From the NCBI RefSeq assembly GCF_900116045.1, contig NZ_LT630450.1:1417501-1481500 (forward strand): a DNA stretch of 64,000 nucleotides, in the 5' to 3' direction. Source of the DNA: Desulfovibrio piger. GTDB lineage: Bacteria > Desulfobacterota > Desulfovibrionia > Desulfovibrionales > Desulfovibrionaceae. This document shows, piece by piece, positions 25,223 through 34,124 of the stretch. The first letter of the stretch is position 1. Each line of letters opens with the position of its first letter. The notes below the pieces were generated by a model. That model was not told the DNA's origin. It ran no database searches and saw only the letters and a list, made by a program, of their open reading frames with translations. Both the position numbers and the translations under genes were made by a program.

Positions 25223-25256
25223 AAAAACAAAAAGCCCGTCGCAGGACACGACGGGC
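25223..25256 (-). terminator. Terminator closing the hyd operon
   Basis: On the minus strand GCCCGTCG and CGACGGGC form an eight-base stem with a seven-base loop, followed by TTTTTGTTTTTGG. It lies about 185 bases after the 28-residue ORF and is the first good terminator downstream of hydF. Confidence 0.8.
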
Positions 25257-25439
25257 CGGGAACATGGACGGGAACACCGCTGCCGTTCAGGTCAGCACAG
25301 CGGGAACAGGGGCGGGCTCACGCAGGCATGGCGGCTGCGCGGGGCCTTCCCGGAGGGATCAGCGGTCTTCCTCCTTGCGCCGGGCGGGAAATGCTTCCAG
25401 ACGCTTGTCCCCGGTACCCGGGGCAGGACGACGGGGCAT

Positions 25440-25526
25440 TCAGCCGCAACCGCCATTCTTGAAGACCCAGCGCATGACGAGCAACATGACGATGATGCCG
25501 ATGACGGCGAACAACGGTCCAGGCAT
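25440..25526 (-). CDS. 28-residue membrane peptide downstream of hydF
   Basis: A very short ORF. It starts MPGPLFAVIGIIVMLLV, forms a single transmembrane helix (residues about 5-18), then MRWVFK and ends NGGCG. A good ribosome binding site, GGGAGG, lies five bases before the ATG. It starts 39 bases after the hydF stop on the same strand and before the operon's terminator, so it is probably cotranscribed with the [FeFe]-hydrogenase maturation genes. The positive residues after the helix suggest the C-terminus is cytoplasmic, with one Cys near the end that could bind metal or a cluster. I do not recognise the family; function is unknown. Confidence 0.6.
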   Translation of the reverse strand: MPGPLFAVIGIIVMLLVMRWVFKNGGCG

Positions 25527-25565
25527 ATGACCTCCCGGGCATGATGCATGCCCTGTGGTTACGGG

Positions 25566-26810
25566 TTATCCCGGCAGCTGCGCCTGGGCACGCCAGGCGG
25601 CCAGCGCTTCCGGGAAGGGAGAGAGCACGCGTTCCAGCACGCCCTGCGCCAGCGAGATGCACATGCCGTAATTGGTCATGGGCAGCCCGTGGGCCCGGGC
25701 TTCGTCCAGCCGGGCCAGCATCTGGCCGCGCGTGATGGCGCAGGCGCCGCAGTGCACCACCGCGGCCGCGTCTCCCGCATATTCGGTGAATTCCTTGCCG
25801 GCCAGCATGGGGGTCTCCACGGGGCCGCCGGCCAGCCGGGCCAGCAGACGCGGGATCTTCACGCGGCCGATGTCATCTTTTTGCGCATGGTGCGAGCAGG
25901 CCTCCTGCACCAGCACGGTCTGGCCGGGCCGCAGACGGGTCAGGGCCGCCGCCCCCCGGGCCAGGGCCACCAGGTCGCCCTTGGCGCGGGCCATGAGGAT
26001 GGAGAACGTAGTCAGGGGCACGGACGGCGGCGTCAGGCGCGCGGCCACATGCACCACCTGCGAATCGCAGACCACCAGATCAGGCGGCTCCCGCAGGGCG
26101 GCAAAGGCCTGCGGCAACTGCTCTTCCGTCACCACAAGGCACAGGCAGCGGCCGTCCAGGCTGTCCCGGATGGTCTGCACCTGCGGCAGGATGAGACGGC
26201 CCTGCGGCGCCCCGGAATCCAGCGGCACCACCAGCAGCAGCGTGCCGTGTTCCGGCAGCAGGTCATGCACCAGCGGCGGCTGCTTCAGGGTCCCGGCCGG
26301 AGCCAGACGGGCCAGCGCGGCCCGGATGCCCTCCAGTCCCCAGCCTTCCCGGGCCGAGGCCCAGAGCACGGGGACCATCGCGGCAAGGTCCGCAGGGCGC
26401 CATGCCGCATCACAGGCGTCCGCCGCCCCGCGGCTGTTGACCACCACGGCAAAGGGGATGCCCGCAGCGGCCAGACGGGCGGCGGTGTCGTTTTCCACAG
26501 CCTCCCAGCAGGGACCGTCCAGCACCAGCAGGGCCACGTCCACCCGGCGCATGGCCCGCAGGCTGCGCTCCACCCGCCGGGCCCCCAGCGGGGCATCCAG
26601 ATCGTCCAGCCCGGCCGTATCCAGAAAGACCACCGGTCCCAGGGGCGCCATCTCCAGCGTTTTTTCCACCGGGTCCGCCGTGCTGCCCGGCGTGGGGGAA
26701 ACGATGGCCACGTCCTGCCCCACCAGCGCGTTGAGCAAGGAAGACTTGCCTGCATTGCGCCGCCCGAACAGGCCGATGTGCAGGCGCAGGGCCTTGGGAC
26801 TTTCGTTCAT
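25566..26810 (-). CDS. hydF: [FeFe] hydrogenase maturation GTPase HydF
   Basis: A 414-residue scaffold protein on which HydE and HydG assemble the 2Fe subcluster before transfer to HydA. The N-terminal GTPase domain has the P-loop GRRNAGKSS (16-24) and switch DTAG (64-67). The C-terminal iron-sulfur domain has C305-x-H307 and H353-C354-x-x-C357, matching the CxH...HCxxC HydF motif. The start at 26810 follows AAGGAG. It is unusually far (about 565 bases) from hydE in the same transcript direction, and a 28-residue ORF follows it closely. Confidence 0.94.
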   Translation of the reverse strand: MNESPKALRLHIGLFGRRNAGKSSLLNALVGQDVAIVSPTPGSTADPVEKTLEMAPLGPVVFLDTAGLDDLDAPLGARRVERSLRAMRRVDVALLVLDGPCWEAVENDTAARLAAAGIPFAVVVNSRGAADACDAAWRPADLAAMVPVLWASAREGWGLEGIRAALARLAPAGTLKQPPLVHDLLPEHGTLLLVVPLDSGAPQGRLILPQVQTIRDSLDGRCLCLVVTEEQLPQAFAALREPPDLVVCDSQVVHVAARLTPPSVPLTTFSILMARAKGDLVALARGAAALTRLRPGQTVLVQEACSHHAQKDDIGRVKIPRLLARLAGGPVETPMLAGKEFTEYAGDAAAVVHCGACAITRGQMLARLDEARAHGLPMTNYGMCISLAQGVLERVLSPFPEALAAWRAQAQLPG

Positions 26811-27374
26811 GCCGAACTCCTTCTGATGGCCGCCGGTCATGCCGGACGACACTCCGTAACTTGTATGCTGAAAAAATCCTGATGCGGACGAGAGGCCGAC
26901 AGGAGAGGTCGATGCCTCCAGCCGCCCTCACGGCCTTTCCTTCCAGATATAGGGACGCTGCGGGCACCTGTCCATGCCGTCATCCCTGAAAGAGCATAAA
27001 ACACTGCACCGCCGCAAATCCCGCAGCCGCTTGCGGCAGTCCCTTCCCGCTCCCCGGCTGTCCCGTCACAGCCCCCTGTCCCCCCTGTTCCACACAGGCC
27101 CTGTACTGCATCTCGACATGAAGAACACGCCGGGGGACTCGTCCCGATCTTCCTCCGCGCCCCCGAAAACATCGGCTTCGCAGCAATCGCAGCCTTTGTA
27201 ACGGCAAGGCTTCCCCGCGCCCGTAAACATCCTCAAGGGCATCCCGCCATGTCCCCGCCCTCACAGACGAAGACGGGGACCTGCCATACCGATCAGAACA
27301 ACGTTTTTTCGGGGCTGGAGGGGGTACGGGGGAGGAAGGGGCAGTTTTTACAAAAAACGCCCTTTCCTCCCTCG
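26811..27374. other. 564-base gap between hydE and hydF
   Basis: An unexpectedly long spacer inside an otherwise compact operon. It contains the second 80-base palindromic repeat (27304-27386, touching the hydE stop) and one possible small ORF (27066-27242, minus). No clear internal promoter for hydF was recognised, so hydF may depend on read-through or on a promoter I cannot identify. Confidence 0.5.
27066..27242 (-). CDS. Possible 58-residue Cys-containing ORF
   Basis: An ATG-started frame in the hydE-hydF gap. It contains PCRYKGCDCCEADVFGG (residues 12-28) with four Cys in nine residues, then an acidic stretch EEDRDES. The ribosome binding site is weak (GGCGGG), and codon positions do not clearly favour coding. 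In DNA this GC-rich, open frames arise by chance, so this is a tentative call; the cysteine clustering and acidic patch are the reasons to record it. Confidence 0.22.
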   Translation of the reverse strand: MPLRMFTGAGKPCRYKGCDCCEADVFGGAEEDRDESPGVFFMSRCSTGPVWNRGDRGL

Positions 27375-27386
27375 TCAAAACCTGCC
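27304..27386. repeat. 80-base palindromic repeat, copy 2
   Basis: Starts TTTTTTCGGGG, then arms GGAGGAAGGGGC (27331-27342) and GCCCTTTCCTCC (27359-27370) around AGTTTTTACAAAAAAC, ending CCTGCC. It matches the element at 15012-15092 in order, spacing and apex. On the minus strand it begins inside the last codons of hydE, so it forms the hydE 3' end. Confidence 0.7.
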
Positions 27387-28439
27387 TTCCTCCCCTGCCC
27401 AAGCTTCCGGCAGCGCATGCTCCAGCCCGGCGCCCGCGATGGCGCGCCGCACGGCGTCCATGTCCACCACAGCCTTGTGGTCGTAGATGCGGTAGGCGGC
27501 CCGGCGCGCCGCCGGGGTGAAGGAAGGCATGAGCACGTTGCCGCCCGCGGCAAGGCCCTGCCGCTGTCCGTCTTCGGGGCGCAGGCTGGCCAGCGCGGTG
27601 GTGGCGGGCAGGTTGGCCCAAGGCAGGGCCAGACGCAGCACGGCCATGACCCGCAGGCACAGCTCCGTGGAGCCGCGCGGCTGCCGCCCCAGAGGGGTGT
27701 CGGCCTGGGGCACGAAGGGCCCGGCCCCGCACATGGCCACGCGCATGTCCCGCACCAGCAGGATGTCGTCCACCAGACTTTCGGGGCGCTGGCCGGGCAC
27801 GCCGACCATGAAGCCGGAGCCCACCTCATAGCCCAGTTCCGCCAGCCAGGAGAGGGCCCGCAGCCGGTCGGCCAGCCGATAGCCGGGATGCAGGGCGGCA
27901 TAGAGACGGGCATCGGCGGTCTCGTGCTTGAGCAGGAAGCGGTCGGCCCCGGCCTCACGCCACAGGGCGTACCATTCGCGCGGCTGCTCGCCCACGCTCA
28001 GGGTCACGGGCAGGCCGAAGCGCTCCTTGAGGCCGCGCACCACCTGGGCCAGCCAGAGGGGGTTGCGGGCCGTCTCGCCCGATTGCAGCACCAGCGTGTC
28101 CACCCCGGCGGCCACGGCCTGCGACGCGGCCCGCAGCAGCTCCGCCGCCGACAGGCTGTAGCGGGCCAGGTGCCTGTTCTCGTGGCGCAGGCCGCAATAG
28201 CGGCAGTTGCGGCGGCAGACATTGGAAAACTCCAGCAGACCGCGCACATGCACATGCCGCCCCTTGTGCCGCAGACGGCACTGGTGCGCCAGGGCCCGCA
28301 ATTCCGGCCAGGGCAGGTCGAAAAGCAGCTCGCGCACTTCGGCCCGGGAAAGGGCGGGGATGGACGTGGGGGCAGCTGAAGAACGGGCGGCCTCGGGACT
28401 GGCCGTCACGGGGGAGGACGGCGGTGCGGATTCCGGCAT
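27375..28439 (-). CDS. hydE: [FeFe] hydrogenase maturation radical SAM protein HydE
   Basis: A 354-residue radical SAM enzyme that supplies part of the dithiomethylamine-bridged 2Fe precursor of the H-cluster. The SAM cluster motif is C75-x3-C79-x2-C82 (CRRNCRYCGLR), in FSNVCRRNCRYCG. The later VLQSGE and VGSGFMVGVPGQ segments also match HydE. The extra N-terminal 25 residues (rich in Ser, Pro, Ala) before SIPALSR are not conserved. AGGAGAT precedes the ATG at 28439. It lies 139 bases after hydG. Confidence 0.93.
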   Translation of the reverse strand: MPESAPPSSPVTASPEAARSSAAPTSIPALSRAEVRELLFDLPWPELRALAHQCRLRHKGRHVHVRGLLEFSNVCRRNCRYCGLRHENRHLARYSLSAAELLRAASQAVAAGVDTLVLQSGETARNPLWLAQVVRGLKERFGLPVTLSVGEQPREWYALWREAGADRFLLKHETADARLYAALHPGYRLADRLRALSWLAELGYEVGSGFMVGVPGQRPESLVDDILLVRDMRVAMCGAGPFVPQADTPLGRQPRGSTELCLRVMAVLRLALPWANLPATTALASLRPEDGQRQGLAAGGNVLMPSFTPAARRAAYRIYDHKAVVDMDAVRRAIAGAGLEHALPEAWAGEEGRF

Positions 28440-28578
28440 GACGGGATCTCCTGGGAAGAGCGGCGGGACAGGAAGGGCCTGCCCGCGGGAAGGATGGACG
28501 GAAAAGGCGGCCAAAACACGCGGAGGACGCCCGGGGCCGCTCCCGGCGGACAGGAGCAGCCCCGGAAAGGATACCGCC

Positions 28579-29997
28579 CTAGAAGCGGAAGTCCCGCTGC
28601 CCGGCCTCGATGGCGCTCAGGCACCGGATGGTGCGGGCGCGCACCTTGTCGCTGGGGATCTTGTCCAGTTCCTTCGCGATCATGTCCAGGCCCACGGCCC
28701 GGGTGGCGGGCGAGGCATAGTCCTGCAGATATTCCTTGAGGGTCAGCAGGGCATTGGGGTGGCAGCAGTTGAGGATCTGGCGGCTCTTGCACAGGCTCAT
28801 GAAGCGGTCGCCGGTGCGGCCCTCGCGGTAACAGGCCGTGCAGAAGCTGGGGATGTGGCCCTGATCCATGAGCCAGCGGACCACCTCGTCCAGGGTGCGG
28901 CGGTCGCTGACATCGAACTGGGCGGAGTTCTCGTCCTCGGGTTCGGGCTCGCAGTAGCCGCCCACGCTGGTGCGGGACGCGCCGCTGATCTGCGAGACGC
29001 CCAGGGGCAGCACCTTTTCGCGCACGGCCTGGCTCTCGCGGGTGGAGATGATCATGCCGGTGTAGGGCACGGCCACACGGATGCAGGCGCAGATGCGGGC
29101 AAAGGTCTCGTCGTCGATACCGTTGTCGAAGACGTCGGGGTCGATGTCGTCGGCCTTCTTGATGCGCGGCACGCTGATGGTGTGCGGGCCCACGCCGTGT
29201 ACGGCCTCCAGATGCTCGGCATGCATGAGCAGGGCCGCGAACTCGTAGCGGTAGCCTTCCAGGCCGAAGAGCACGCCCAGGCCCACGTCGTCGATGCCGC
29301 CCTGCATGGCGCGGTCCATGGCTTCGGTATGCCAGGCGTAATCATGCTTGGGGCCCGCGGGATGGAGCTTTTCGTAGCTCTGCTTGTGGTAGGTCTCCTG
29401 GAACAGGATGTAGGTGCCGATGCCCGCCTCCCTGAGCATCCGGTATTCCTCCACGGTGGTGGCCGCGATGTTCACGTTGACGCGGCGGATGGCCCCGTTC
29501 CTGTGACGGATGCCGTAGATGGTGCGGATGCAGTCGAGGATGTAGCTGATGGGGTTCATGGCGGGGTGCTCGCCCGCTTCCAGGGCCAGGCGCTTGTGGC
29601 CCATGTCCTGCAGGGCGATGACCTCGCGGGCCACCTCCTCCTGGGTCAGCTTCTTGCGGATGATGTGCTTGTTGCGGGCGTGGTAGGGGCAGTAGACGCA
29701 GCTGTTGACGCAGTAATTGGACAGGTACAGCGGCGCGAACATGACGATGCGGTTGCCGTAGAACTCGTGCTTGATGCGGTTGGCCAGCCGGTACAGGGCC
29801 TCCACCCTGTCCGGCAGCTCACAGGCCAGCAGGACGGAGGCTTCCCGGTGGCTCAGGCCCTTGCAGAGCGCGGCTTTGGCAAGGATGCCGTCGATGAGCC
29901 CGGCATCGCGGGCATGTTCCGCCGCCCAGGCAAGGGTCTCCTGCACCTCTTCGTGATCTATGAATTCTTCGGCATGCAGGGAATGGGGATCGTACAT
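28579..29997 (-). CDS. hydG: [FeFe] hydrogenase maturation radical SAM protein HydG
   Basis: A 472-residue tyrosine lyase that yields CO and cyanide for the H-cluster. The radical SAM motif is C96-x3-C100-x2-C103 (CVNSCVYCPY), and the C-terminal auxiliary-cluster cysteines lie in CTACYREGRTGDRFM and the following ILNCCHPNAL region. Length is normal. The ATG is preceded by AGAGG. It follows hydB by 110 bases with no terminator, consistent with one transcript with the structural genes. Confidence 0.95.
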   Translation of the reverse strand: MYDPHSLHAEEFIDHEEVQETLAWAAEHARDAGLIDGILAKAALCKGLSHREASVLLACELPDRVEALYRLANRIKHEFYGNRIVMFAPLYLSNYCVNSCVYCPYHARNKHIIRKKLTQEEVAREVIALQDMGHKRLALEAGEHPAMNPISYILDCIRTIYGIRHRNGAIRRVNVNIAATTVEEYRMLREAGIGTYILFQETYHKQSYEKLHPAGPKHDYAWHTEAMDRAMQGGIDDVGLGVLFGLEGYRYEFAALLMHAEHLEAVHGVGPHTISVPRIKKADDIDPDVFDNGIDDETFARICACIRVAVPYTGMIISTRESQAVREKVLPLGVSQISGASRTSVGGYCEPEPEDENSAQFDVSDRRTLDEVVRWLMDQGHIPSFCTACYREGRTGDRFMSLCKSRQILNCCHPNALLTLKEYLQDYASPATRAVGLDMIAKELDKIPSDKVRARTIRCLSAIEAGQRDFRF

Positions 29998-30107: not shown

Positions 30108-30494
30108 CTAGAATTTCTGTTCGTAAGGATAGGGAGAAGCGGCGAACATCTCTACATCACGGGGATTGGGGAACGTTCCCGCCTCCACCAGACGGCGGTA
30201 CCCGGCGGACCGGTCCGTCCAGCGGGTATGCAGCAATTTCTCGGAAAGCGGGCCCAGCGGCTGCTTCAGATAGGCGGCATACAGTTCCCTGACCTGGGCG
30301 TTATCCTGCGAGGCCCGCACGGGAAAGGCGGCATCCGCACCGTAGACTCCGTTGATGCGGTCCAGCATGTAGTCCCTGATGTCCCGGAACCTGGCTACGG
30401 CCACACCGGCCATGCGCAGACTGATCATGGCGCCACCCGCGACCGCACAGGCCGCACGCAAGAAACCGCGACGGGTCAGATGCGTCATCTTCAT
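30108..30494 (-). CDS. hydB: Periplasmic [FeFe] hydrogenase small subunit
   Basis: A 128-residue subunit. It carries a twin-arginine signal, TRRGFLRAA (residues 7-15), which exports the assembled heterodimer since the large subunit has no leader. The mature part (RFRDIRDYMLDRINGVYG onward) matches the Desulfovibrio small subunit that wraps the catalytic subunit. AGGAGG precedes the ATG. It starts 11 bases after the hydA stop. Confidence 0.92.
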   Translation of the reverse strand: MKMTHLTRRGFLRAACAVAGGAMISLRMAGVAVARFRDIRDYMLDRINGVYGADAAFPVRASQDNAQVRELYAAYLKQPLGPLSEKLLHTRWTDRSAGYRRLVEAGTFPNPRDVEMFAASPYPYEQKF

Positions 30495-30505
30495 GGTGTA
30501 TCCTC

Positions 30506-31756
30506 CTAAACTTCCGCGCGGTCAAGACGTTGCCGCAGCGAAGCATACAGACTGGTGGCACGGCGCTGGGCCTGCTCCAGCAACGTGGGCATGACAGGCT
30601 GCCCGCCGCCGCAGACGCAACCTCCGGGACAGGCCATGAACTCGATGAAGTGATACGGCGACCTGCCCGCACGCACCTCATCACACACTTTTTTGAAACG
30701 TCTGGCTCCATGGACCACAGCTACGCGCAGCTCCGTGCCCTTGATGGTCAGCGTGGCTTCCTTGAGGCCGTCCAGTCCGCGCACGGCCCTGAAATCCCAG
30801 CTCCGGGGCTTGCCGCCCGTGATGGCTTCATAGGCGTAGCGCAGGGCGGCTTCCATGACACCGCCGCTGACGCCGAAGATGGTGGCCCCGCCCGACGATT
30901 CGCCCATCAGGCTGTCGCGGCCGCCATCGGGCAGCGAGGCAAAGTCGATACCGGCTTTCTTGATGAGCCAGGCCAGCTCGCGGGTCGTGATGGTGGCGTC
31001 GATGTCGCGCCGGCCACTGGCCGCGAGCTCAGGCCGCAACCCTTCGTATTTCTTGGCGATACAGGGCATGATGGAGACGGTGTAGACCGTATCGGGAGCA
31101 TAGCCCATGCGCTCCGCACCGTAGGTCTTGGCCAGGGCACCGTTCATGCCTATGGGCGACTTGCAGGACGAGAAATGCGGCAGCAGGTCGGGATAAAAGG
31201 TCTCGGCATATTTCTGCCAGCCCGGACAGCAGGACGTAAACTGGGGCAGGTCGCGACGCGCGGCCAGGCGTTCCACGAATTCCGAGGCTTCTTCCCAAAT
31301 GGTCACGTCCGCGGCGAATTCCGTGTCCCAGCAATGGGCGAAGCCCAGGGCTTTGAGCGCGGAGAGCATCTTTCCCGTGCTGACCGAGCCCACCGGCAGG
31401 CCGAAGCAGTCGCCCAGGGCGTAGCGCACGGCGGGCGCGGGCATGGCGATGCAGCGGATATCCTTGCGGACAAGCGCCGCTTCCAGCTCGGGAATCCAGC
31501 TCTGTTCCTCATAGATGGCCAGCTCAGGACAATGGGTCAGGCACTGGCCGCAGTTGATGCAGGCTTCGGGATGCGGGATGGCGTGCTCGCGCCCCACCTC
31601 GCCAAAGATGGCCCCTGTGGGGCAGTACTCCTGGCAGGTATCACAGCCGACGCAACGTTCGGCATCGATCTGCACGAACGGCAGGGTACCGGGATGCGGC
31701 CCCGGCTGCGGCACATGCGGCACATAGCCGATATGCTCCATCTCGATGCGCTTCAT
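30506..31756 (-). CDS. hydA: Periplasmic [FeFe] hydrogenase large subunit
   Basis: A 416-residue catalytic subunit that oxidises or evolves H2. Two [4Fe-4S] ferredoxin clusters are ligated by C35/C38/C41/C45 and C66/C69/C72/C76. The three H-cluster motifs are TSCCPGW (174-180), MPCIAKK (230-236) and [15 protein letters not shown] (373-387); the second Cys of TSCCP is the proton-relay residue. Compared with soluble clostridial enzymes the N-terminal extra clusters are lacking, as in the D. desulfuricans/D. vulgaris periplasmic enzyme. AAGGAGG precedes the ATG, which overlaps the upstream regulator's stop (ATGA). Confidence 0.96.
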
Positions 31757-32043
31757 GAATCCTCCTTGGGGGAAAGCTCTCGCCCGGCGGCAGTAAGCAG
31801 GACGCTGCGTACTTTCACACCGGGGATGTTCCCCAGTTTTCCGGTCATCGCCCCGAGGGCATCCGTATTGCCGTCCACCAGCAGGGCGATGATGCTCAGG
31901 CCCCGCTCACGGTACGGCACGCCCATGCGCCCCACCACCAGATCAGCGTACTGGCTGATGATGCTGTTGACGGAAGCCGCCCGGGCCTGCCTGTCGTGGA
32001 TGGCGAGGGCCACCACACCTATCCGTTTTTCCTGACTGACCAT
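31753..32043 (-). CDS. Iron-only hydrogenase system regulator, TM1266 type
   Basis: A 96-residue ACT-like or ferredoxin-fold protein ([20 protein letters not shown], then [22 protein letters not shown]). This family is found next to [FeFe] hydrogenase genes and is named after T. maritima TM1266; its regulatory role is inferred from context in other genomes. The chosen ATG removes a 60-residue low-complexity extension and follows GGAT. Its stop overlaps the hydA start by four bases, so it heads the operon. Confidence 0.85.
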
Positions 32044-32286
32044 GTCGTATCCGTGTCCCCAGGACAATGAGACGCGGCGGCACGGCCCCGGCACCCGGTG
32101 CGCCGGTCCTGGCCGGCTTGCGGCCCGCCCCTGCGGGCCCGCCGCGCGATATATGCCTGCACACGGCCCCTGCCTGCATCGGATGACAATGCCCGGAAAG
32201 CGCTCAGGGGATACCGGTGGCAAGTCGGCATCCCCTGAGCTGTCTCCCCGACTGCCAAAAAAAGGGAGACAGGGGGCGTATGCAAT

Positions 32287-32313
32287 CGTGTTATTTTTTA
32301 TAAAAACGTGTTA
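32287..32313 (-). promoter_or_regulatory. Candidate control region of hyd operon
   Basis: An A/T-rich block about 245 bases upstream of the TM1266-type gene. CGTGTTA occurs twice as a direct repeat exactly 20 bases apart (32287-32293 and 32307-32313), flanking TTTTTTATAAAAA. On the minus strand TATAAA could be a -10, but no good -35 is present. The two-turn spacing suggests cooperative binding on one DNA face. Confidence 0.45.
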
Positions 32314-32355
32314 CCAGTTTTGTAGCCTCCCCTCTTCCCCGTGTCAAGGGAGACA

Positions 32356-32396
32356 GAAAAAAAGCCGGGAAGACGATCATGGATCATCCTCCCGGC
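32356..32396 (-). terminator. Terminator of group-B hydrogenase gene
   Basis: On the minus strand GCCGGGAGGATGAT and ATCGTCTTCCCGGC form a long stem with a short loop, followed by seven T residues, about 95 bases after the stop. It separates this gene from the hyd operon promoter region. Confidence 0.88.
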
Positions 32397-32490
32397 ACAT
32401 AACGTCATCATCCGTCTGCCGCAGGCCCGGACGGGCGCCCCGAGCGACGGCAGCAGCAGGCGCTCGCAGACGATGGGGCGCCGCCCTCCC

Positions 32491-33933
32491 CTATACCTTG
32501 CCCCTGGCGGCAAAGTTCTCCACGGCCCTGGCGCCCTTGGCGACGGGCATCACCACACCGGCGCCGCCCACGCAGCCGCCCGCGCAGGTCATGACTTCCA
32601 CCAGGTTGCCGGGGCAGCCGCCCTTGACGAAGGACTGCAGTTTCCTGAGGCCCTGGGGAGAAAGGCCGTTGACGGACACGGGCCGCACCTCCATGCGGCC
32701 GCCCACCATCTTTTCCACGGCGGCGGCCACACCGCCCGCGATGGCATAGCCGCGGGCCTCGTTGCTGGGGCGCTCCAGCTCGTGTTCCTCGCACTCTTCC
32801 ACCACGATCCCGCGGGCATCGAACAGGGCCCCCACTTCCTCGAAGGTGAGCACATAGTCCACCATGTCGTCGTGCAGGCCTTCCTGGCGCTTGGCCACGC
32901 AGGGGCCGATGAAGACCGTCACGGTACCGGGATGGCGCTCGCGGGCCAGTTCCGCCGTATAGTGCATGGGCGTGGCCGTTTCCGACACATGGGGCAGGAG
33001 CTCGGGCGCATGGCGGCGCACGGCTTCCACATAGGCCGGGCAGCAGGACGTGGTCATGAAGCTGTCACCGCGTTCCATGCGTTCCACGAATTCCGCGGCC
33101 TCGCGCTGCGAGGTCACGTCCGCGCCCAGGGCCACTTCCATGACATCGGAAAAGCCCAGACCGCGCAGGGCCGTGACGATGCGGGCCGGGCCGCCGGGGA
33201 ACTGGCCCACGATGGCCGGAGCCATGAGGGCCGTCACATGGCGGCCGCCGGCCAGGGCGCGGAGCACGGGCAGCACCTCGCTGCGCTCCATGACCGCCCC
33301 GAAGGGACAGGCACGCATGCAGCGGCCGCAGCTGGTGCACTTTTCAAAGTCGATCTCGGCACGGCCCTTGTCGCCCTTGTGGATGGCGCGCACCGGGCAG
33401 GCCGTCTCGCAGGGGACGTTGAGGCGCACGATGGCATGGTAGGGGCAGGCGTCCATGCACATGCCGCAGTTGCGGCACTTGTCGGGGTCGATGGTGGAGC
33501 GGCCGCGGGAGAAGGAGATGGCCCCGAAGCGGCAGCTGCCGACACAGGAACGCGCCACGCAGCCCTGGCAGGCATCGGTCACATAGTAGCGGGCCCGCAT
33601 GCAGCCCTGGCAGGCGATGTCGCAGACCGTCAGGATGGGCCAGTTGGGTTCCGTGCGTTCCAGGGCCTCTTCGGCATAGGCGCGCAGCGGGATGGAGTCG
33701 TCCGTCTCGTCTTCGAGGCGGAAGCCCATGGCGGCGCGCAGGCGCTCGCGCAGGATGGCGCGGTCCTTGTAGATGCAGCAGCGGCTCATGATCTCGCTGC
33801 CGCGCGGGCGCATCAGCAGGGGGATGCGGTCCACGTCTTCCGGCAGGGTCCCGGCCCAGAACGAACGGGCCAGACGTTCGATGACGCCGAGGCGCAGCGA
33901 ACTCAACATATTGTCACTCTTGGTAGCAGGCAT
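32491..33933 (-). CDS. [FeFe] hydrogenase, group B type
   Basis: A 480-residue, probably cytoplasmic [FeFe] hydrogenase. H-cluster motifs are TTSCCPAY (294-301), GPCVAKRQE (343-351) and VMTCAGGCVGG (447-457). Before them lie many Cys: CDIACQGC (104-111), ACQGC and SCVGSC (122-134), CRNCGMCMDAC (153-163), and CTSCGRCMRAC (199-209), enough for several [4Fe-4S] clusters. The SCCPAY and TCAGGCVGG variants differ from HydA and match the monomeric group B family, whose role is not settled. No Tat or Sec signal. AAGGAG precedes the ATG; it has its own promoter and terminator. Confidence 0.88.
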   Translation of the reverse strand: MPATKSDNMLSSLRLGVIERLARSFWAGTLPEDVDRIPLLMRPRGSEIMSRCCIYKDRAILRERLRAAMGFRLEDETDDSIPLRAYAEEALERTEPNWPILTVCDIACQGCMRARYYVTDACQGCVARSCVGSCRFGAISFSRGRSTIDPDKCRNCGMCMDACPYHAIVRLNVPCETACPVRAIHKGDKGRAEIDFEKCTSCGRCMRACPFGAVMERSEVLPVLRALAGGRHVTALMAPAIVGQFPGGPARIVTALRGLGFSDVMEVALGADVTSQREAAEFVERMERGDSFMTTSCCPAYVEAVRRHAPELLPHVSETATPMHYTAELARERHPGTVTVFIGPCVAKRQEGLHDDMVDYVLTFEEVGALFDARGIVVEECEEHELERPSNEARGYAIAGGVAAAVEKMVGGRMEVRPVSVNGLSPQGLRKLQSFVKGGCPGNLVEVMTCAGGCVGGAGVVMPVAKGARAVENFAARGKV

Positions 33934-34124
33934 GGTCTCTCCTTGCGGCGGAACGCCCGGATAAGGATGACCGTCCGGGCATGCGGACGGTGATGGCCGG
34001 AACATCCGGCACCAGGGACAGGCGCCCGGAACAGGCGCGACAGGACAGGAGCGGCCCCGGCCGCACCGGGCCTGCCGGGGGCGGGGAAGAGGAGGCACGG
34101 CGCATGGAACCGTGACCATAAAAC

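Follow-up and report, generated by a model that had tools for sequence, protein, structure and literature searches.

The small open reading frame downstream of hydF in Desulfovibrio piger is, on sequence grounds, a real gene beyond chance, and the 28-residue peptide assigned to it most likely constitutes the front part of a longer membrane protein in which the stop codon is read as selenocysteine (Sec). Computational analysis of the window (the whole stretch of 64,000 nucleotides) and of related genomes identified a conserved read-through frame, a covarying hairpin, Sec machinery in the hosts, and linkage of the gene to hydF or to an [FeFe] hydrogenase. The resulting 55-residue selenoprotein, encoded with the [FeFe]-hydrogenase maturases, would quite probably be membrane-anchored and act as an iron or electron accessory. 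If true, D. piger and its relatives, which are gut hydrogen consumers, would possess an additional selenoprotein family of a kind that gene callers would truncate at the UGA or overlook, and there would be a handle on the cellular delivery of iron and reducing power to HydF and the apo-hydrogenase. Selenium supply would furthermore be coupled to hydrogen metabolism by way of [FeFe] enzymes, a link that is, to our knowledge, established only for [NiFeSe] hydrogenases.

Table 1. Positions of the predicted selenoprotein gene, its elements and neighbouring genes in the window
Feature	Position	Strand	Basis or remarks
Predicted selenoprotein gene	25359..25526	-	54 sense codons and in-frame UGA (Sec), 55 residues; TGA stop at 25359-25361; frame open in 4 genomes of the window's clade; conservation drops past the second stop
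28-codon frame with UGA	25440..25526	-	From ATG 25526 to TGA 25440-25442, MPGPLFAVIGIIVMLLVMRWVFKNGGCG; predicted membrane helix (residues 3-24) and NGGCG
In-frame UGA, predicted Sec codon	25440..25442	-	Read-through frame, hairpin and TGA-hairpin control
SECIS-like hairpin	25409..25423	-	CCCCG-GGUAC-CGGGG; loop begins 21 nt past the UGA
26-codon basic tail after Sec	25362..25439	-	MPRRPAPGTGDKRLEAFPARRKEEDR; read-through translation and clade alignment
Ribosome-binding site	25531..25536	-	GGGAGG, 4 bases ahead of ATG
Terminator-like hairpin with T tract	25233..25257	-	Consensus match; after the second stop
hydF	25566..26852	-	TIGR03918, 484.6 bits; stop 39 bases from the small gene's ATG
hydE	27375..28514	-	TIGR03956, 289.1 bits
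hydG	28579..29997	-	TIGR03955, 917.6 bits
Group B1 monomeric [FeFe] hydrogenase	32491..34119	-	TIGR04105, 569.4 bits; such a hydrogenase also precedes the selenoprotein gene in G007 and, for both clades, in the loci fetched more widely

In-frame UGA, hairpin and host machinery

The 28-codon sequence, its ribosome-binding site and its spacing from hydF were confirmed as originally predicted (Table 1), and GGAGG likewise precedes the ATG in the six copies of a second clade. The prediction of a small membrane protein closing the operon was upheld by conservation behind hydF, but its 28-residue end was not, given the hairpin, the 26 additional codons and the conserved tail. Doubt about this end arose from the second-clade alignment, in which conservation runs past the TGA; the selenoprotein gene had apparently been mistaken for a short peptide because the UGA was taken as a stop. 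The terminator that had been proposed downstream was recovered as a terminator-like hairpin, which is positioned after the second stop and not at the end of the peptide, and the tail would therefore share the transcript.

An in-frame UGA with an open continuation was present in all 13 copies of the gene (10 hydF-linked, two tandem paralogues and one hydrogenase-linked), each of which also displayed, 21 nt after the UGA, a GGU-loop hairpin composed of a five-pair stem and the loop GGUNN. Across these copies, which represent 10 distinct rows, 50/50 stem cells pair and three of the five pairs were changed on both sides; 0/500 shuffles reached the covariation score and 10/500 reached the number of doubly changed pairs, these shuffles ignoring kinship. 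When the hairpin register was shifted by 1-3 columns, pairing amounted to at most 62%. Consensus folding adds one loop-closing pair, and the loop may thus be a triloop. According to the accessible text of PMC1088965, bacterial SECIS hairpins carry a guanosine in the apical loop, as does the GGU loop in 13/13 copies. The fetched loci, which overlap one another and include the selenoprotein family repeatedly, contain 21,507 TGA triplets, and the exact hairpin was observed after 57 of these; counted by distinct context, six belong to the family and three are other. Within the window, which contains 1407 TGA triplets, the exact hairpin was found only at the small gene. A search of Rfam, which may hold no bacterial SECIS model, returned no matches up to E 10. 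Based on the frame and the hairpin, the TGA very probably encodes selenocysteine.

The hosts possess the means to decode such a codon: the 10 hydF-linked genomes gave tRNA-Sec scores of 78-85 bits, and G007, the genome with the hydrogenase-linked copy, one of 81 bits, and SelB exceeded its cut-off in 10/10 of the hydF-linked genomes. In the genus as a whole, tRNA-Sec above 65 bits was detected in 56 of 79 genomes. Additionally, a formate dehydrogenase with an in-frame TGA was identified in 10 of the 11 genomes searched, the eleventh presenting only a fragment at a contig end (loci L169, L170, L172-L175 and L177-L180 were read; L166-L168 and L171 were left out). The shorter formate dehydrogenase of the window's genome displays a GGUCU loop after 18 nt, the same loop as in the second clade, while the longer one displays a GGC, not a GGU, loop after 23 nt.

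Distribution and gene neighbourhood

HydF matches were obtained in 53 of the 79 genus genomes, and the DNA following hydF was examined in 50 of these (G078, G080 and G088 were left out, yet were covered by the profile searches). A short membrane frame ending in ...GCG-TGA was located behind hydF in 10/50 loci, including that of the window. The carriers comprise four D. piger-like genomes (HydF 95-100% identical), among whose named records are D. piger ATCC 29098 and PG-251-APC-1, and six genomes of the second clade (HydF 61-65%). These relatives were recovered by anchoring the search on hydF after a peptide-only search had missed them, the latter, run on 61 genomes, having returned besides the copy in the window only 13 weak matches (E of at least 0.2). 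Eight other hydrophobic short frames behind hydF (L023, L031, L033, L049, L052, L053, L055 and L056) were rejected as they lack the motif. When the 79 genus genomes were searched with a profile of the nine distinct peptides, 10 sites scored E below 1e-11, each of them immediately following hydF, and the next match was at 0.0063. Placed on a 49-row HydF tree, from which L060 was excluded for its short length, the 10 carriers require two changes, either a gain plus a loss or a pair of gains.

Searching 345 genomes of the order with a full-protein profile revealed that G092 and G094 each carry a second gene in tandem and that G007 has a further copy; matches in G011 and G254 were rejected since their translations resemble other proteins, and lower rows were also dropped. 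With the final profile at E up to 0.01, 16 of the 79 genus genomes matched and 11 were accepted, the matches in G011, G071, G023 and G086 being dropped as weak. In a phylum sample of 395 genomes, which includes only part of the genus, seven genomes matched, of which G000 and G007 were accepted and G605, G609, G449, G689 and G611 were dropped as weak (E 0.001 to 0.01). A search of a phage collection gave no match. Conservation behind hydF in related genomes and purifying selection had been put forward with the original prediction as checks on the peptide: as regards the former, the frame and its GCG-TGA end recur as described, but the gene was not found by profile in 68 of the 79 genus genomes, some of whose assemblies are incomplete. 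It is thus not needed for [FeFe] hydrogenase maturation in general.

The tandem second gene (KKRCG-U-RPRQRALG; L036:329-670 and L037:476-817, minus strand) was present in two genomes and encodes a C-terminus rich in Gly, Asp and Cys, GDCGGCDGGGGGD. In G092 (L036) approximately 140 extra bases separate hydF from the selenoprotein gene; these may be a dispersed repeat, as parts of them resemble, by eye, downstream stretches in L038 and L043.

The proposed identities of the upstream maturases were verified by family models (Table 1), and upstream in the window lie the genes for HydF, HydE and HydG, for both subunits (small and large) of a group A hydrogenase, for a TM1266-family regulator and for the B1 [FeFe] hydrogenase. 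The region 30108-34119 (minus strand) places group A (HydAB, with a Tat signal on the small subunit) and B1 [FeFe] hydrogenases in one locus with the regulator and the maturases. In D. piger ATCC 29098 the order is B1, hydG, hydE, hydF, selenoprotein, and HydAB is absent from the fetched 13 kb, while in the three second-clade loci fetched more widely (G065, G067 and G094) it is B1 hydrogenase, hydE, hydF, selenoprotein, with hydG on another contig. In G007 a same-strand group B1 [FeFe] hydrogenase precedes the copy by approximately 270 bases; HydF was not matched in this genome at E up to 1e-20, and its sole HydG match scored 319 bits, as opposed to approximately 880-920 bits for the operon HydGs of the carriers. 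Based on the fetched gene orders, the shared neighbours are therefore the B1 hydrogenase and (except in G007) hydF, and not the Tat-exported HydAB. This weakens the earlier suggestion that the peptide anchors HydF or the immature hydrogenase at the membrane before Tat export. Furthermore, relatives without the selenoprotein retain the order B1-hydE-hydF (L194-L196), which points to an accessory function for the protein.

Two further observations were made on these loci. The B1 [FeFe] hydrogenase of G007 (L161:6254-8650) is located in a genome that is rated 100% complete and has no HydF match. A second HydG-like radical SAM protein, scoring approximately 270-340 bits versus approximately 900 bits for the operon HydG, is encoded at G000:C1:1315605-1316912 and at similar places in many genomes of the genus; it may have another role, since several genomes without a HydF match retain it.

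Relationship to FeoB-associated proteins and proposed role

No Pfam or NCBIfam model matched the selenoprotein family over its cut-off, and NCBIfam gave no match for three full-length proteins. The nearest relatives are the FeoB-associated Cys-rich membrane proteins (PF12669), to which sub-threshold matches were obtained for three of seven proteins (E 0.0065, 0.033 and 0.23; best score 17.2 against a cut-off of 27 bits), none being listed for the window's own protein. Conversely, the full-protein profile retrieved FeoB-associated proteins in G068 (E 8e-4, over the Pfam cut-off) and G143 (E 1.6e-5), the latter looking like a FeoB-associated protein from its own sequence and from the FeoA-like frame that follows it. 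Comparison with a profile of 19 genus FeoB-associated proteins (19 of 24 extracted were aligned; candidate L082 was clearly wrong) gave 81%. When the helix and tail blocks were shuffled separately, 0/100 shuffles matched the profile score (best 28.0 versus 28.7); shuffling of the tail only gave 0/100 and of the helix only 14/100, indicating that the tail motif carries the PF12669-like signal. The selenoprotein is a probable distant relative, and not a member, of the FeoB-associated proteins. Both appear to combine a short N-terminal membrane helix with basic residues and then a Gly/Cys motif, and the Sec column stands opposite a Cys that is invariant in the 19 genus members. They differ in that FeoB-associated proteins are described in the accessible part of PMC8749426 as carrying a Cx3-5Cx2-3Cx6-8C motif, whereas the selenoprotein has one Cys and the Sec, and in that its gene adjoins hydF or the B1 hydrogenase and not feoB. 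A close Cys version was not found among the genomes searched, Cys at the Sec position being encountered only through these distant relatives.

With the bacterial selenoproteins of a 119-family inventory, as far as its available text goes (PMC13188914), the protein shares the in-frame UGA with a SECIS-like hairpin, the C-x-U spacing and a Sec-using host. In the portion of Table 1 of this 2026 inventory of prokaryotic selenoprotein families and subfamilies that was accessible, no entry corresponds to PF12669 or is tied to [FeFe]-hydrogenase maturation, and neither FeoB nor hydrogenase occurs in the available text of the 2025 deep-Sep paper (PMC12013277). Among the matches listed in open-licence literature, nothing links selenoproteins to HydF, HydE/F/G, FeFe hydrogenase, FeoB-associated proteins or D. 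piger. Selenium has reportedly been placed into the H-cluster artificially (PMC13339137). The HydE, HydF and HydG maturases share the operon with the selenoprotein, but family scans show no similarity to them. The protein would apparently be a previously undescribed selenium-containing helper of hydrogen enzymes.

AlphaFold2 bore out the single predicted helix (residues 3-24; mean pLDDT 85 for residues 1-10 and 90 for residues 11-20, lower after), past which confidence was low (mean pLDDT 66.5) and no thioredoxin-like fold was predicted. By the positive-inside rule, the basic flank of a membrane helix faces the cytoplasm. Here the first charged residue is R19 and basic residues come after the helix, which should place the Cys-Gly-Sec end in the cytoplasm. 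The C-terminal Cys singled out in the original prediction indeed belongs to a motif, Gly-Cys-Gly-Sec in the 55-residue product, that is conserved in the hydF-linked copies.

From these features we infer Sec insertion itself, the topology, the handling of iron or electrons, and the partner. One helix would anchor the 55-residue selenoprotein in the membrane, with the Gly-Cys-Gly-Sec motif just past it on the predicted cytoplasmic face and a short basic tail thereafter; the protein would probably bind and hand over iron, or pass electrons, at the membrane, and the recipients would be H-cluster assembly or the cytoplasmic group B1 hydrogenase. The model for this role is provided by the FeoB-associated Cys-rich membrane proteins, which are thought to handle iron. 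In the part of PMC8749426 that was available their Cys motifs are commonly linked to iron binding, and whether they are translated is called unanswered. The accessible text of PMC12752695, from which the word membrane is absent, describes HydE/F/G maturation in a defined system whose activity is strongly increased by the Fe-S carrier NfuA combined with a CO-binding myoglobin. On account of these Cys motifs and this defined system, an accessory function (hand-over of iron, or the keeping of iron or thiols in a reduced state, at the membrane) is favoured. By analogy, iron hand-over might plausibly be the function, and a redox function is conceivable to a somewhat lesser degree. More broadly, and with some reservation, the membrane-anchored selenoprotein could be a fourth, lineage-specific accessory, serving either [FeFe]-hydrogenase maturation or group B1 hydrogenases, its Cys-Gly-Sec delivering iron or electrons; it would then constitute a new selenoprotein family and, as far as we know, the first of natural origin to be connected with this pathway.

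It is also possible, though rather unlikely, that Cys-Gly-Sec transfers no iron and instead serves as a redox switch, or as a scavenger of peroxide or oxygen, that maintains the reduced state of HydF, of the B1 hydrogenase or of their clusters. The C-x-U motif and the one Cys besides Sec that is invariant in the 10 hydF-linked copies are compatible with this, and redox roles are ascribed to most selenoproteins (PMC13188914, available text). However, no thioredoxin-like fold is predicted for these 55 residues, with one helix and the rest of low confidence, the nearest family is iron-associated, and G007 has GGGU in place of GCGU, so that the Cys neighbour is not invariant.

Selection past the UGA and other readings of the frame

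Among the six genomes of the second clade, differences in the 12 codons after the UGA, summed over pairs, amount to 22.0 synonymous and 0 nonsynonymous, as compared to 0 synonymous and 14 nonsynonymous differences in the two other frames; these codons overlap the hairpin, and RNA structure may therefore account for part of the constraint. For the following 25 codons, pS was 0.344 and pN 0.183 (five sequences; L032 was omitted due to an indel), and selection beyond the first 12 codons thus appears only moderate, while for the 30 codons ahead of the UGA the values were 0.186 and 0.138, respectively. Read-through extends for 26 codons in the window's frame and for 61 to 86 in the second clade, with U-RPNLRALGLRDP and subsequently DGFF or GGFF as a shared tail. 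Among the D. piger clade, 3/84 columns vary in the helix part, 4/84 from the UGA to the second stop and 21/66 beyond. The tail of this clade exists in only two versions, and as all four differences between them are nonsynonymous, the clade does not by itself demonstrate purifying selection on the tail. The indication of the purifying selection sought with the original prediction comes from the second clade.

That the true product is the 28-residue peptide, the UGA a normal stop and the remainder 3' untranslated RNA is improbable. This corresponds to the standard code, and the peptide portion shows little variation across the D. piger clade, but it leaves unaccounted for the covarying hairpin at a fixed distance from the UGA, the purely synonymous differences after it, the conserved tail of the second clade and the similar residues that follow Sec in the paralogue and in G007. 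Even less probable is that the UGA and its hairpin form a selenium sensor, yielding the short peptide at low and the long product at high selenium and so tuning hydrogenase maturation to selenium supply. Efficient UGA recoding is reported to require sufficient selenium in the medium (PMC4513850), and the gene is the last one ahead of the terminator-like site; however, the translation of a terminal gene can hardly control the hyd genes upstream of it, and no gene-sized frame was assigned between the selenoprotein gene and the terminator-like site.

Open frames and GC-rich hairpins are common in the window, where 722 of the 1407 TGA triplets are followed by a 26-codon open frame, 34 pass a loose hairpin test and 16 do both, so that an open frame or a loose hairpin alone proves little. 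The selenocysteine reading nevertheless concerns a gene that is conserved in two diverged clades, in a tandem duplicate and in a genome without a HydF match, which leaves a chance frame combined with a chance hairpin with a negligible probability.
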